Assembly (NCBI GenBank): GCA_902629955.1
Contig: CACOSS010000003.1
Span: 1-64,000 of the forward strand
DNA length: 64,000 bases
Direction of reading: 5' to 3'
Source: an uncultured Pelagibacteraceae bacterium
GTDB taxonomy: Bacteria; Pseudomonadota; Alphaproteobacteria; Pelagibacterales; Pelagibacteraceae
Shown: positions 19,724 to 56,202 of the stretch, in pieces
Layout of the letters: every line of letters begins with the position of its first letter
Numbering within the stretch: the stretch's first letter is position 1
Translations under genes and position numbers: made by a program
The notes under the pieces: model-generated
Database searches by the model: none
What the model saw: only the letters and a program-made list of their open reading frames with translations
What the model was told of the DNA's origin: nothing

Positions 19724-20727
19724 TAGGCAGTTAATTGATTTGCTTTTTCATTGTTTTGAGCGATATCCATAATATGTTTTGCTTTTTGAAAATCAGAATC
19801 TCTTGCCATCATGTTGTCGCTCAAATATTTTTTCCATTCCTTTGAACCTGGTTGACCATAATAAAGTCCAACGGTATGCCTCATTACTTGATTTACTTTA
19901 GTTCCTGTTTTAAGCTCTTTTTTAAGATATTCTAAAATTTGTTTAACAATGTCTTCTCTCGATAATATTTTTGAATTATTAAATATCTCGTTTTCAATAT
20001 CTTTTAAAAAATAAGGGTTTTGGTAAATTGCCCTACCAATCATTACGCCATCACAATAATTTAAATGTTTTTTAATTTGTTCTGTAGTTGTAATTCCCCC
20101 ATTAATTATAATTTCTAAATCTGGATGTGATTTCTTAATATCATAAACCATTTCATAATTTAATTTAGGAATATTTAGATTTTGTTTTGGGGTTAAGCCT
20201 TTTAATATTGCTTTTCTAGCATGTAAAATAATGGTTTTACAGCCAGTTTGTTTCATTTTATTAACAAACATATTTAAATAATCAAATTCCTCTGTATCAT
20301 CAAATCCTATTCTTGTTTTAGCTGTGACTGGAATACTGCAAGACTTTTTCATTTCAGCCAAACATTCAGATACGAGATCTGGCTCTTTCATTAAACAAGC
20401 TCCAAAAGAATTTTTTTGAACTTTTTTACTAGGACAGCCTAAATTTATATTAACCTCATCATAACCATAATCTTCAGCAATTTTAGCAACCTCAGCTAGC
20501 TCTTTTTTATCTGAACCACCTACTTGCAAAGCTAAAGGTTTTTCGAAATTATCGTATTTGAGCAATTTGTGTTTATCGCCTCGTAAAACAGCTTTAGTAA
20601 CAACCATCTCTGTGTAAAGCATTACATTTTCACTAATAAGTCTTAAGAAATATCTATCATGACGGTCAGTACAGTCCATCATAGGAGCAACTGAAATTTT
20701 TCTATTAATTTTTTTTTTAATATCCAA
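19723..20727 (-). CDS. dusA: tRNA-dihydrouridine synthase A
   Basis: VAPMMDCTDRHDRYFLRLI, LQVGGSDKKELAEVA, NINLGCPSKKVQKNSFGACLM, GVMIGRAIYQNPY. Confidence 0.94.
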   Translation of the reverse strand: MDIKKKINRKISVAPMMDCTDRHDRYFLRLISENVMLYTEMVVTKAVLRGDKHKLLKYDNFEKPLALQVGGSDKKELAEVAKIAEDYGYDEVNINLGCPSKKVQKNSFGACLMKEPDLVSECLAEMKKSCSIPVTAKTRIGFDDTEEFDYLNMFVNKMKQTGCKTIILHARKAILKGLTPKQNLNIPKLNYEMVYDIKKSHPDLEIIINGGITTTEQIKKHLNYCDGVMIGRAIYQNPYFLKDIENEIFNNSKILSREDIVKQILEYLKKELKTGTKVNQVMRHTVGLYYGQPGSKEWKKYLSDNMMARDSDFQKAKHIMDIAQNNEKANQLTA

Positions 20728-22048
20728 GGGCTTTACCCATTACTTTATCAGGTAACCATGTAACAATTTCTGGAAAAATACATAGTATTAAAATTGCTAA
20801 AGCCATTATTATCATAAAAGGCACTGATCCTTTTAAAATTTCTTTCAAGCTAACATCGGGAGTAATACCTTTAATTATATAAAGATTTAGACCCACTGGT
20901 GGAGTAATTAAACCAATCTCCATATTTATCGTAAATACTATAGCAAACCAATAAGGGTCAAAGCCTAGAGTGGTTATTACTGGTAACAATATTGCTGAAG
21001 TCATAACAATTACTGCAACGGGAGGTAAAAAGAAACCAGCTATTAAAAGAAAAATATTTATTAAAATAAATATAACCCATTTATTTGAACTTAGTTCTAC
21101 CATGCTCTGAGCTAAAGATTGAGTTACATAAAGTTGCGAAAGAGTAAATGCAAAAAGATAAGAAGCTGCGATGATGAACATTATCATCACACTTTCTTTC
21201 ATTGAAACTTTAACTATGTTCCATATTTTTTTTGGTTGATAAATTTTATAAACAATTGCTATCATCACAAAAACTAGAAATGCTCCAACTCCTGAAGCTT
21301 CTGATGGAGTAGCTACTCCTCCATATAAAACATACAAAACTCCAGCTATAATTGCTAAAAATGGGAAAATTCTTGGTAACACTTCAAGTTTTTCTTTTAA
21401 GGTGGGACGTTTTCTATTTTTTAAAGCTTTAGCGGCATCTTTATCAATAAAGTAGCTATGAATTAATGCCCATATTGCAAACATACCCGCAAGCATGAAA
21501 CCTGGAATTAAACCACATAAAAACAATCTTCCAATAGAGGTACCAGTTGCAATTCCATAAACAATTAAAACTATACTTGGTGGAATTAAAACTCCCAAAG
21601 TTCCTCCGGCTGCTATAGTTCCAGTAGCAATTTGATCTGAGTATCCTCTCTTTCTCATTTCAGGTATGCCCATTGTTCCAATTGCTGCGCAGGTCGCTGG
21701 GCTTGAACCGCTCAAGGCTGCAAAAATAGAACACGCGCCAATATTAGAAATAACTAATCCACCTGGAACTCTCCATAACCATCTGTCTAAACCAATATAT
21801 AAATCTTTACCTGCTGGTGAATTAGCTACAGCCATTCCCATTAAAATGAACATCGGAATTGAAAGTAAAACAAAAGAATTTAGACCAGCATAGAATGTTT
21901 CAGCAAAAACATCTAACATTTGAAAACCTTCAAAAGAAACAAGTAGTGCTATCGAAACAAAGCTCAAACCAAAAGCGATTGGGATACCAGAAAAGAGAAC
22001 TATCAAAGTAAATACTGCGACTATCAAAGCTATTATTAATGGATCCAT
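20717..22048 (-). CDS. dctM: TRAP transporter large permease (DctM)
   Basis: Polytopic; SGSSPATCAAIGTMGIPEMRKRGY, GTLGVLIPPSIVLIVYG, EIGLITPPVGLNLYI. Confidence 0.95.
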   Translation of the reverse strand: MDPLIIALIVAVFTLIVLFSGIPIAFGLSFVSIALLVSFEGFQMLDVFAETFYAGLNSFVLLSIPMFILMGMAVANSPAGKDLYIGLDRWLWRVPGGLVISNIGACSIFAALSGSSPATCAAIGTMGIPEMRKRGYSDQIATGTIAAGGTLGVLIPPSIVLIVYGIATGTSIGRLFLCGLIPGFMLAGMFAIWALIHSYFIDKDAAKALKNRKRPTLKEKLEVLPRIFPFLAIIAGVLYVLYGGVATPSEASGVGAFLVFVMIAIVYKIYQPKKIWNIVKVSMKESVMIMFIIAASYLFAFTLSQLYVTQSLAQSMVELSSNKWVIFILINIFLLIAGFFLPPVAVIVMTSAILLPVITTLGFDPYWFAIVFTINMEIGLITPPVGLNLYIIKGITPDVSLKEILKGSVPFMIIMALAILILCIFPEIVTWLPDKVMGKALGY

Positions 22049-22542
22049 TACTTATAATCCTTATCATCAGCTAATTTTATGATTTCTGCTATGTATTGAA
22101 GTATCATTAGAATAGCTCCAATCATCATTGAAGAATAAGGTATCCAAAGTGGAGGATCCCAAACTGTTCCTGTTGAATAATTTTTTGTAAAAGCTTCCTC
22201 AACCATTAAAAAACCAAAATAAAAAAGAATTAGAAAGAAAAGTAAACTTAAAAAAGATGTGAAAATTTTTAATCTAATAATATTTTTATTAGATAAAAAA
22301 TCATATATCCATTCCATGCTAACATGTGCCTTTTCACTTAGAACATACGCGCTTCCAATAAACGTTGATGCAACCAAAAGCATTGTAACCAATTCTGTTT
22401 GCCAAGTAATTGCTCTTTGAAAGAAGTATCTTTCAAATACTAATTCTACGATAACTAATATTGATAATAATAATGCTAATACAGCAAACGCTCCACAAGC
22501 TTTTGCAATATGATCACAAAACTTTAAATACTTTTTTTTCAT
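22048..22542 (-). CDS. dctQ: TRAP transporter small permease (DctQ)
   Basis: Four-TM protein, VTMLLVASTFIGSAYVLSEKAHVSMEWIYD; between dctP and dctM. Confidence 0.92.
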   Translation of the reverse strand: MKKKYLKFCDHIAKACGAFAVLALLLSILVIVELVFERYFFQRAITWQTELVTMLLVASTFIGSAYVLSEKAHVSMEWIYDFLSNKNIIRLKIFTSFLSLLFFLILFYFGFLMVEEAFTKNYSTGTVWDPPLWIPYSSMMIGAILMILQYIAEIIKLADDKDYK

Positions 22543-22548
22543 AAAAAA

Positions 22549-22576
22549 AACCCCTATTTAAAATTAAATAGGGGTT
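22549..22576 (-). terminator. Hairpin with U-tract between dctP and dctQ
   Basis: Minus-strand AACCCCTATTTA-ATTT-TAAATAGGGGTT followed by T-run running into the dctQ ATG (22542). Confidence 0.8.
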
Positions 22577-22593
22577 CTTCTTTATATATTTTT

Positions 22594-23604
22594 TTACTTA
22601 ACTGATAAAGCCATTTCCATTAGCTTATCGCCACCTGGAACTTTTTCAGCAAATGCTTTGTGAGAAGATTTCTTAGCAATCTCAACCCAAGCTGCATGGT
22701 CTTTTGCGTTCATATACACTAGTTTTACTCCTGCCGCCTTGTAAGCATCCTCAAATTTTTTATCTAAATTTTCTACTTGAGCAGTCATATATTTTTCTGC
22801 AACTTTTCCAGCTTTCATTAAAGCATCTTGTTGTTTTGAATTTAATTTATCAAAGCTCATTTTTGACATCAAAATTGGCTCATACATAAACCATAAACCA
22901 AATTTACCTGGAGGAGTTGCGCAAGAAACTTGTTCGTAAATTTTATAACTTACAAAACTTCCTGAACTAGTATTTGCTCCAGTAAGTACTCCAGTTTGTA
23001 AACCAGTATAAATTTCAGATGATGGCATACTTTGAATACCTGCACCAGCTGCTTCTAACATTTGGTTGAATGCCTTACCAGCTGCTCTCATTACTTGTCC
23101 TTTTGCGTCACTAGGATTTTTGATACATTTTGTTTTTGATGCAAAACCCCCTCCTAGCCAAGCATCAGATAATACAACTACACCAGCATCATTAATAATT
23201 TTTTTAATCTCAGTCATCATTGGACCTTTGTTAAATCTCAATGCATGATCGTGATTTTTAACTGTTCCTGGCATTAAAGTTGCATCAAATTCTGGATGAA
23301 ACTTAGATGCATACGCTAATGGAAAAGCAGAAATATCCAATTGACCAGTTGTCATTGGTTTCCATTGTTCTTTTGGTTTATAAAGTGATTTTGCAGGATA
23401 AATTCTTATATCTACTCCCACATTTGCTTTTTTCATTTCATCAGCAATTATCTGTACCATTTCGTGTCTTGGATCATATGAACCATCCGCTCTTGGCGTT
23501 CCTGGCCATTGGTGACTTGCTTTTAATGTAACAGCATAAGCCGATCCAATTGTAGTTAAGATAAATACTAATGAAGTTAAAAATAAAGATATTCTTTTAA
23601 ACAT
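22594..23604 (-). CDS. dctP: TRAP transporter solute-binding protein (DctP family)
   Basis: Signal peptide MFKRISLFLTSLVFILTTIGSAYA; LKASHQWPGTPRADG; RAAGKAFNQMLEAAGAG; EIYTGLQTGVLTGAN. Confidence 0.92.
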   Translation of the reverse strand: MFKRISLFLTSLVFILTTIGSAYAVTLKASHQWPGTPRADGSYDPRHEMVQIIADEMKKANVGVDIRIYPAKSLYKPKEQWKPMTTGQLDISAFPLAYASKFHPEFDATLMPGTVKNHDHALRFNKGPMMTEIKKIINDAGVVVLSDAWLGGGFASKTKCIKNPSDAKGQVMRAAGKAFNQMLEAAGAGIQSMPSSEIYTGLQTGVLTGANTSSGSFVSYKIYEQVSCATPPGKFGLWFMYEPILMSKMSFDKLNSKQQDALMKAGKVAEKYMTAQVENLDKKFEDAYKAAGVKLVYMNAKDHAAWVEIAKKSSHKAFAEKVPGGDKLMEMALSVK

Positions 23605-36626: not shown

Positions 36627-36633
36627 ACAGACC

Positions 36634-36656
36634 GGCGACTATAAATTATAGTCGCC
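36634..36656 (-). other. Perfect hairpin between amino-acid binding-protein gene and first permease gene
   Basis: ggcgactata-aat-tatagtcgcc, 10-bp perfect stem, 3-nt loop; ends 7 nt before the permease ATG; no clear U-tract. Confidence 0.75.
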
Positions 36657-36670
36657 AAATCTAAAATTAT

Positions 36671-56114: not shown

Positions 56115-56135
56115 TCTTAGGGTAATTTAAATTTT

Positions 56136-56174
56136 AATAGGCGCCAATTGTAATAAATTGGTGCCTATTTTTTT
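56136..56174 (+). terminator. Intrinsic-terminator-like hairpin between tauA and tauB
   Basis: aataggcgccaatt-gtaata-aattggtgcctatt then ttttt; 14-bp stem with one G:U. Confidence 0.85.
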
Positions 56175-56202
56175 GTTTAAAATTCAAATATAAAGTCTCT
56201 TT

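Follow-up and report, generated by a model that had tools for sequence, protein, structure and literature searches.

In SAR11, the gap between a TRAP solute-binding protein gene, dctP, and the gene of the small membrane subunit, dctQ, holds a conserved intrinsic terminator hairpin whose U-tract touches the dctQ start codon, and strong hairpins, most of them terminators, follow the binding-protein genes of the same genome. We consider it probable that the dctP-dctQ element acts as a leaky internal terminator and as a stabiliser of the mRNA 3' end, yielding DctP in excess, and that it also masks the start of dctQ on any RNA that reads through. The analysis started from a stretch of 64,000 nucleotides, here called the window, and was extended to the draft genome that contains it and to related genomes.

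The dctP-dctQ junction and its conservation

Pfam searches identified three TRAP genes on the minus strand, in the order dctP, dctQ, dctM. The solute-binding protein DctP has 336 aa (22594..23604; PF03480, E 2.8×10−40), the small membrane subunit DctQ 164 aa (22048..22542; PF04290, E 7.2×10−26) and the large membrane subunit DctM 443 aa (20717..22048; PF06808, E 1.7×10−92). Between the dctP stop codon TAA (22596-22594) and the dctQ start codon ATG (22542-22540) lie 51 nt, composed of an AU-rich spacer, a stem-loop and eight T. The spacer ATATATAAAG (22580..22589, minus strand) separates the stop codon from the hairpin (22549..22576, minus strand), in which the 5' arm AACCCCTATTTA (22576-22565) and the 3' arm TAAATAGGGGTT (22560-22549) form a perfect 12-bp stem closed by the 4-nt loop ATTT (22564-22561). 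The U-tract (22543..22550, minus strand) touches the ATG with its last U; two of its eight T (22550-22543) are also counted within the stem. An earlier note on this DNA had described the 12-bp stem and a U-tract ending at the dctQ ATG; its coordinates and sequence were correct, and the eight T do reach the base before the ATG. The folding energy of a 56-nt junction segment was −21.6 kcal/mol, compared with −7.3±2.6 kcal/mol after shuffling (z −5.5; none of 200 shuffles was as good). The hairpin is genuine and far above chance.

We sought dctQ relatives in 151 genomes of the genus and in the contigs of named genomes, and obtained 130 orthologous dctP-dctQ junctions that represent 92 distinct sequences. 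Ninety-one of these 92 qualify as intrinsic terminators; in the single exception, from the cultured strain HTCC9565, the stem is shorter and CCCCTA still pairs with TAGGGG across a longer loop. The spacing of the parts is conserved as well: the last G of the stem is 7-8 nt from the dctQ ATG in 90/92 distinct junctions, and the CCCC run follows the dctP stop by 16 nt in 74/92. The distance from stop codon to stem is 19 nt in the window junction and in seven others.

The stem itself varies among orthologues in a paired manner (CTATTTA/TAAATAG, CTGTTTA/TAAACAG, CTACTTA/TAAGTGG, GCCCTTGTTT/AAATAAGGGC and CCCCTGC/GCAGGGG). In a set of 24 diverse sequences, 96.9% of the cells pair and both sides have changed at five of the 12 pairs. 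Doubly changed cells numbered 22 as against 5.3 in shuffles, none of 500 shuffles reached 22, and sliding the partner by one base lowered pairing to 65% or less. Judged from these sequences, paired changes preserve the dctP-dctQ stem. The loop is free to vary, while arms, spacer and U-tract are constrained, the U-tract being among the most conserved parts of the element. Hairpin and abutting U-tract are retained in orthologues in which DctQ is only 65-68% identical (L111-L115).

The spacer ATATATAAAG has a per-base conservation of 0.96-1.00 in 114 distinct sequences, compared with a mean of 0.79 for the third codon positions of dctP. In most of the close orthologues it sets the 16-nt distance from stop codon to stem. 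Its near-invariance is seen in orthologues L066-L110 and L136-L215 and is lost in the divergent L111-L115. It may serve as a spacer, as a −10-like box or as an RNase site.

Hairpins after binding-protein genes across the genome

The genome belongs to SAR11 (Pelagibacteraceae), its nearest records being genomes of this family, many from single cells, and strain HTCC9565. It is a draft of 907,931 bases in 44 contigs and is approximately 75% complete. A simple ORF caller gave 885 genes, and individual start sites among them may be wrong. Candidate binding-protein genes came from proteins with a putative signal peptide and from the neighbours of hairpins, and Pfam was used to check them. One more gene emerged when the whole genome was searched for four binding-protein families and for paralogues, and members of families outside these searches could be missed; the added gene, on contig C2, encodes a Peripla_BP_6 protein and has its neighbour on the opposite strand.

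The earlier note had proposed that hairpins at binding-protein junctions be compared with those in other gaps genome-wide. We made this comparison over all co-directional gaps of 15-400 nt, with thresholds (−9 kcal/mol, U content) chosen for this analysis rather than calibrated on terminators known from SAR11, and found terminators at 9/10 binding-protein junctions and in 6/184 other gaps (Fisher P=5×10−11). Hairpins of −9 kcal/mol or stronger, with or without a U-tract, were present at all 10 binding-protein junctions and in 12/184 others (P=4×10−11); with gaps limited to 40-100 nt, the counts were 10/10 and 5/72 (P=1.4×10−9). When the 100 nt past each gene end were considered instead, hairpins followed 11/11 binding-protein genes and 46/848 other genes, and terminators 10/11 and 11/848, respectively. 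Ten of the 21 strong gene-end intrinsic terminators in this genome, about half, thus follow binding-protein genes. Two of the ten binding-protein genes with a co-directional neighbour (OpuAC type, on C9 and C10) precede non-transporter genes, and the terminators there may simply end the unit; with both excluded, the enrichment was 7/8 against 6/184 (P=8×10−9).

In six other SAR11 genomes, a strong hairpin was found after 34/38 binding-protein genes of the DctP and SBP_bac_3 families, and 23 of these genes had a terminator. The four genes lacking a strong hairpin were L228, L229, L246 and L247. The first two belong to one SAR11 DctP family (in G086 and G118) in which the gap to the next gene is 28 nt, a natural contrast to the junctions that carry the element.

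Strong terminators are also found after non-transporter genes, namely after the gene of proteorhodopsin, identified by Pfam, and after groEL, recA and the genes of S-adenosylmethionine synthetase and a pilin-like protein, identified by N-terminal sequence only. Since such genes carry it too, the element may be a general mark of highly expressed genes. The proteorhodopsin terminator lies before a ferredoxin-like gene downstream on the same strand (contig C5, 45012-45088; L042). Other closely spaced gene pairs were also separated by strong hairpins without a U-tract (C9, 1638-1680, L012; C2, 95562-95602, L035), an example being GAGGAGCGAAGTAATTCGCTCCTC after the gene of a 453-aa protein. A dispersed repeat of the REP type was rejected as the origin of the elements: the stems differ at every binding-protein junction. 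Among 26 dctQ loci from other alphaproteobacterial families, several have strong hairpins after the upstream gene; as the genomes are GC-rich, the ORF ends uncertain and the comparison free of a matched control, we draw no conclusion from them.

Two further binding-protein junctions lie in the window, and the earlier note had regarded their hairpins as similar to that of dctP-dctQ. Both do have hairpins, and they are of two kinds. On the plus strand, the junction between an NMT1-like binding-protein gene and an ABC ATPase gene (56115-56202) holds a terminator hairpin with a U-tract (56136..56176); it resembles the dctP-dctQ element as a terminator, though with 33 nt between the end of the stem and the ATPase ATG. 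On the minus strand, the junction between an SBP_bac_3 gene and a permease gene (36627-36670) holds the strong hairpin GGCGACTATAATTTATAGTCGCC (36634..36656), which lies 7 nt before the permease ATG but has no U-tract. The label "terminator" therefore fits most binding-protein junctions of the genome but not the whole class, one of the three window junctions being without U-tract.

The SBP_bac_3-permease hairpin is kept in position, again without a U-tract, in G012, G082, G086, G107 and G118 (L241-L245), and its stem differs in several of these five other SAR11 genomes. The retention of such U-less hairpins shows that intrinsic termination cannot account for all of the conserved function. Protection of the mRNA 3' end and occlusion of the start site are candidate functions common to both kinds of hairpin, and the former probably matters alongside termination.

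Predicted occlusion of the dctQ start

The earlier note had suggested that the hairpin could limit translation of the membrane subunits as well as transcription; the support for this part of the proposal is a prediction. For each of 855 starts, we calculated the opening energy of positions −18 to +12 (median: 9.1 kcal/mol). The dctQ start had the highest value of all 855 (30.9 kcal/mol). The permease start after SBP_bac_3 ranked third (27.0 kcal/mol), an SDR gene following OpuAC on C10 fourth (24.9 kcal/mol) and a permease start on C2 fifteenth (19.7 kcal/mol). The remaining genes that follow binding-protein genes have their hairpins further upstream and show ordinary opening energies, and occlusion therefore belongs to the abutting subset and not to the whole class. 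The dctQ start is thus predicted to be occluded by the hairpin, with a ranking that partly restates the presence of a strong hairpin there; as the rank follows from that hairpin, it does not by itself demonstrate that translation is affected.

It had further been claimed that the only bases resembling a Shine-Dalgarno sequence lie inside the 3' arm. This is true, but the argument carries little weight because such motifs are rare in this genome: AGGA, GGAG or GAGG was found upstream of only 102/859 genes (41 in shuffles). A leaderless dctQ mRNA was rejected, as the ATG is preceded by GGGG and eight U and by no −10 box.

Function of the hairpin and relation to known systems

In the reading that we favour, a leaky terminator with stabilising and start-covering effects, most transcripts from the dctP promoter would stop in the U-tract and give a dctP-only mRNA, the 3' end of which would be shielded by the hairpin. 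A minority would read through into dctQM. With the U-tract in direct contact with the dctQ start codon, no promoter can fit between the terminator and dctQ, so that dctQM should rely on read-through RNA. On this RNA, the same hairpin is predicted to mask the dctQ initiation site and to reduce translation. We infer that partial termination, excess dctP mRNA, 3' protection and reduced dctQ translation together limit dctQM relative to dctP; DctP would then be far in excess of DctQM, which would suit the scavenging of dilute nutrients. Where other binding-protein junctions have a hairpin but no U-tract, the hairpin probably acts to the same effect by mRNA protection and start-site occlusion.

Internal terminators after solute-binding protein (SBP) genes have been described in Clostridia (PMC9045158). 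The stem-loops after SBP genes of Ruminiclostridium gave 21-96% termination in reporters, with more than 90% for long U-tracts, and at least 15 stem-loops have been predicted after SBP genes of E. coli (PMC9045158). The dctP-dctQ element resembles type I of Ruminiclostridium: one stem-loop follows a binding-protein gene that lies 5' of the translocator genes (PMC9045158). Its folding energy of −21.6 kcal/mol lies within the reported type I range of Wu et al. (−38 to −10 kcal/mol), and its U-tract, with eight U here and 7-8 in most orthologues, exceeds their limit of >5 U. By analogy, termination efficiencies in SAR11 might be expected to be like those of the Ruminiclostridium stem-loops. The systems of that study are Gram-positive ABC importers with measured termination, whereas dctP-dctQ belongs to an alphaproteobacterial TRAP operon and is known from sequence; unlike them, its U-tract enters the next start codon and its hairpin lies within the initiation region.

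Read-through might also depend on the translation of dctP, as the distance from stop codon to stem falls in the range in which ribosomes suppress termination in E. coli. There, a trailing ribosome can partly suppress a terminator: termination efficiency was about 0.12 with a distance of 17 nt in one series, 0.8 with 18 nt in a second, and maximal beyond about 27-30 nt (PMC4824070). A device of two layers is conceivable on this basis, in which the spacer fixes the distance and both read-through into dctQM and opening of the dctQ start by the same helix depend on how close ribosomes stay to RNA polymerase on dctP. The output of dctQM would then reflect translation in addition to transcription, with variants of the device at most SAR11 binding-protein junctions; we regard this extension as speculative and rather doubtful.

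Alternatively, the hairpin could be mainly a stabiliser of the malE-malF type: the full operon mRNA would be cut downstream, exonucleases would halt at the hairpin and leave a stable dctP mRNA, and the U-tract would be incidental. In E. coli, malE and other SBP mRNAs are selectively stable; differential decay stabilises the part of the mRNA that encodes the binding protein in five operons for ABC transporters, and most of the 3' ends concerned carry stable hairpins (PMC5927463). At malE-malF, too, a stable hairpin stands right after the binding-protein gene and extra binding-protein mRNA is expected (PMC5927463). The hairpins without U-tract that are kept between SBP_bac_3 and permease genes fit this explanation, and the one in the window (36634-36656) is nearer to the malE-malF structure than the dctP hairpin is. 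However, the malE-malF segment is kept via mRNA decay, while the dctP hairpin has a U-tract, and this U-tract is highly conserved; moreover, it is terminators, beyond hairpins alone, that are strongly enriched. We therefore think it unlikely that stabilisation is the main function. Termination and stabilisation can coexist at dctP-dctQ.

Less likely still is an ordinary, full terminator of a dctP-only unit that genome streamlining has squeezed against dctQ, with dctQM driven from another promoter that lies within the hairpin or before it, for example at TATATAAAG. SAR11 genes are indeed tightly packed, with a median of 3 nt between co-directional neighbours, and the spacer ATATATAAAG, near-invariant in close orthologues, would put the transcription start at the 5' arm. 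RNA starting there would still contain most of the hairpin and the U-tract, however. The motif is gone in L111-L115, which are divergent but retain the hairpin, and is not general at other binding-protein junctions. We accordingly rejected a promoter within the junction: divergent orthologues have lost the −10-like TATATAAAG, and the region does not exceed shuffled sequences in its number of promoter-like matches.

The least probable explanation is a regulated attenuator, or a dctP 3' end that gives rise to a small RNA, in which a ligand, protein or antisense partner would alter termination. It has a precedent in enterobacteria, where early Rho-independent termination after the binding-protein gene gltI produces SroC along with a monocistronic mRNA (PMC9438474), and the invariant spacer ATATATAAAG calls for some explanation; but SroC is a processed 163-nt RNA, the dctP-dctQ loop is freely variable and the spacer of ~13-19 nt offers little space for an antiterminator or a long seed. 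At Rfam gathering scores, positions 20000-60000 of the window gave a tRNA as the only match and no riboswitch or attenuator.

A conserved hairpin is also known from Candidatus Pelagibacter ubique, the rhtB-linked motif, which is followed in about half of the cases by 6-9 U and is sometimes near livK or livM (PMC2704228). As described there, that motif is bulged with a conserved loop and bulge, unlike dctP-dctQ with its freely variable loop, and the dctP-dctQ element is not described in the covered passages of this Pelagibacter structured-RNA survey (PMC2704228). Among open PMC papers, we found no report of such terminators in SAR11 or in TRAP operons, nor of a fusion with the start codon. The principle of an internal terminator or stabiliser after a binding-protein gene is already known. 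As variants of it, three features appear to be new, namely that SAR11 uses it almost universally, that the operon is of the TRAP type and that the U-tract is fused to the start codon.

Few cells on Earth outnumber those of SAR11, and a large share of SAR11 protein consists of periplasmic binding proteins. If hairpins such as that of dctP-dctQ set the excess of these proteins, a main feature of nutrient uptake in poor waters would be hard-wired in short elements, open to reading in every SAR11 genome and to comparison between lineages. How much binding protein is made per pump would then be predictable, and the prediction testable.
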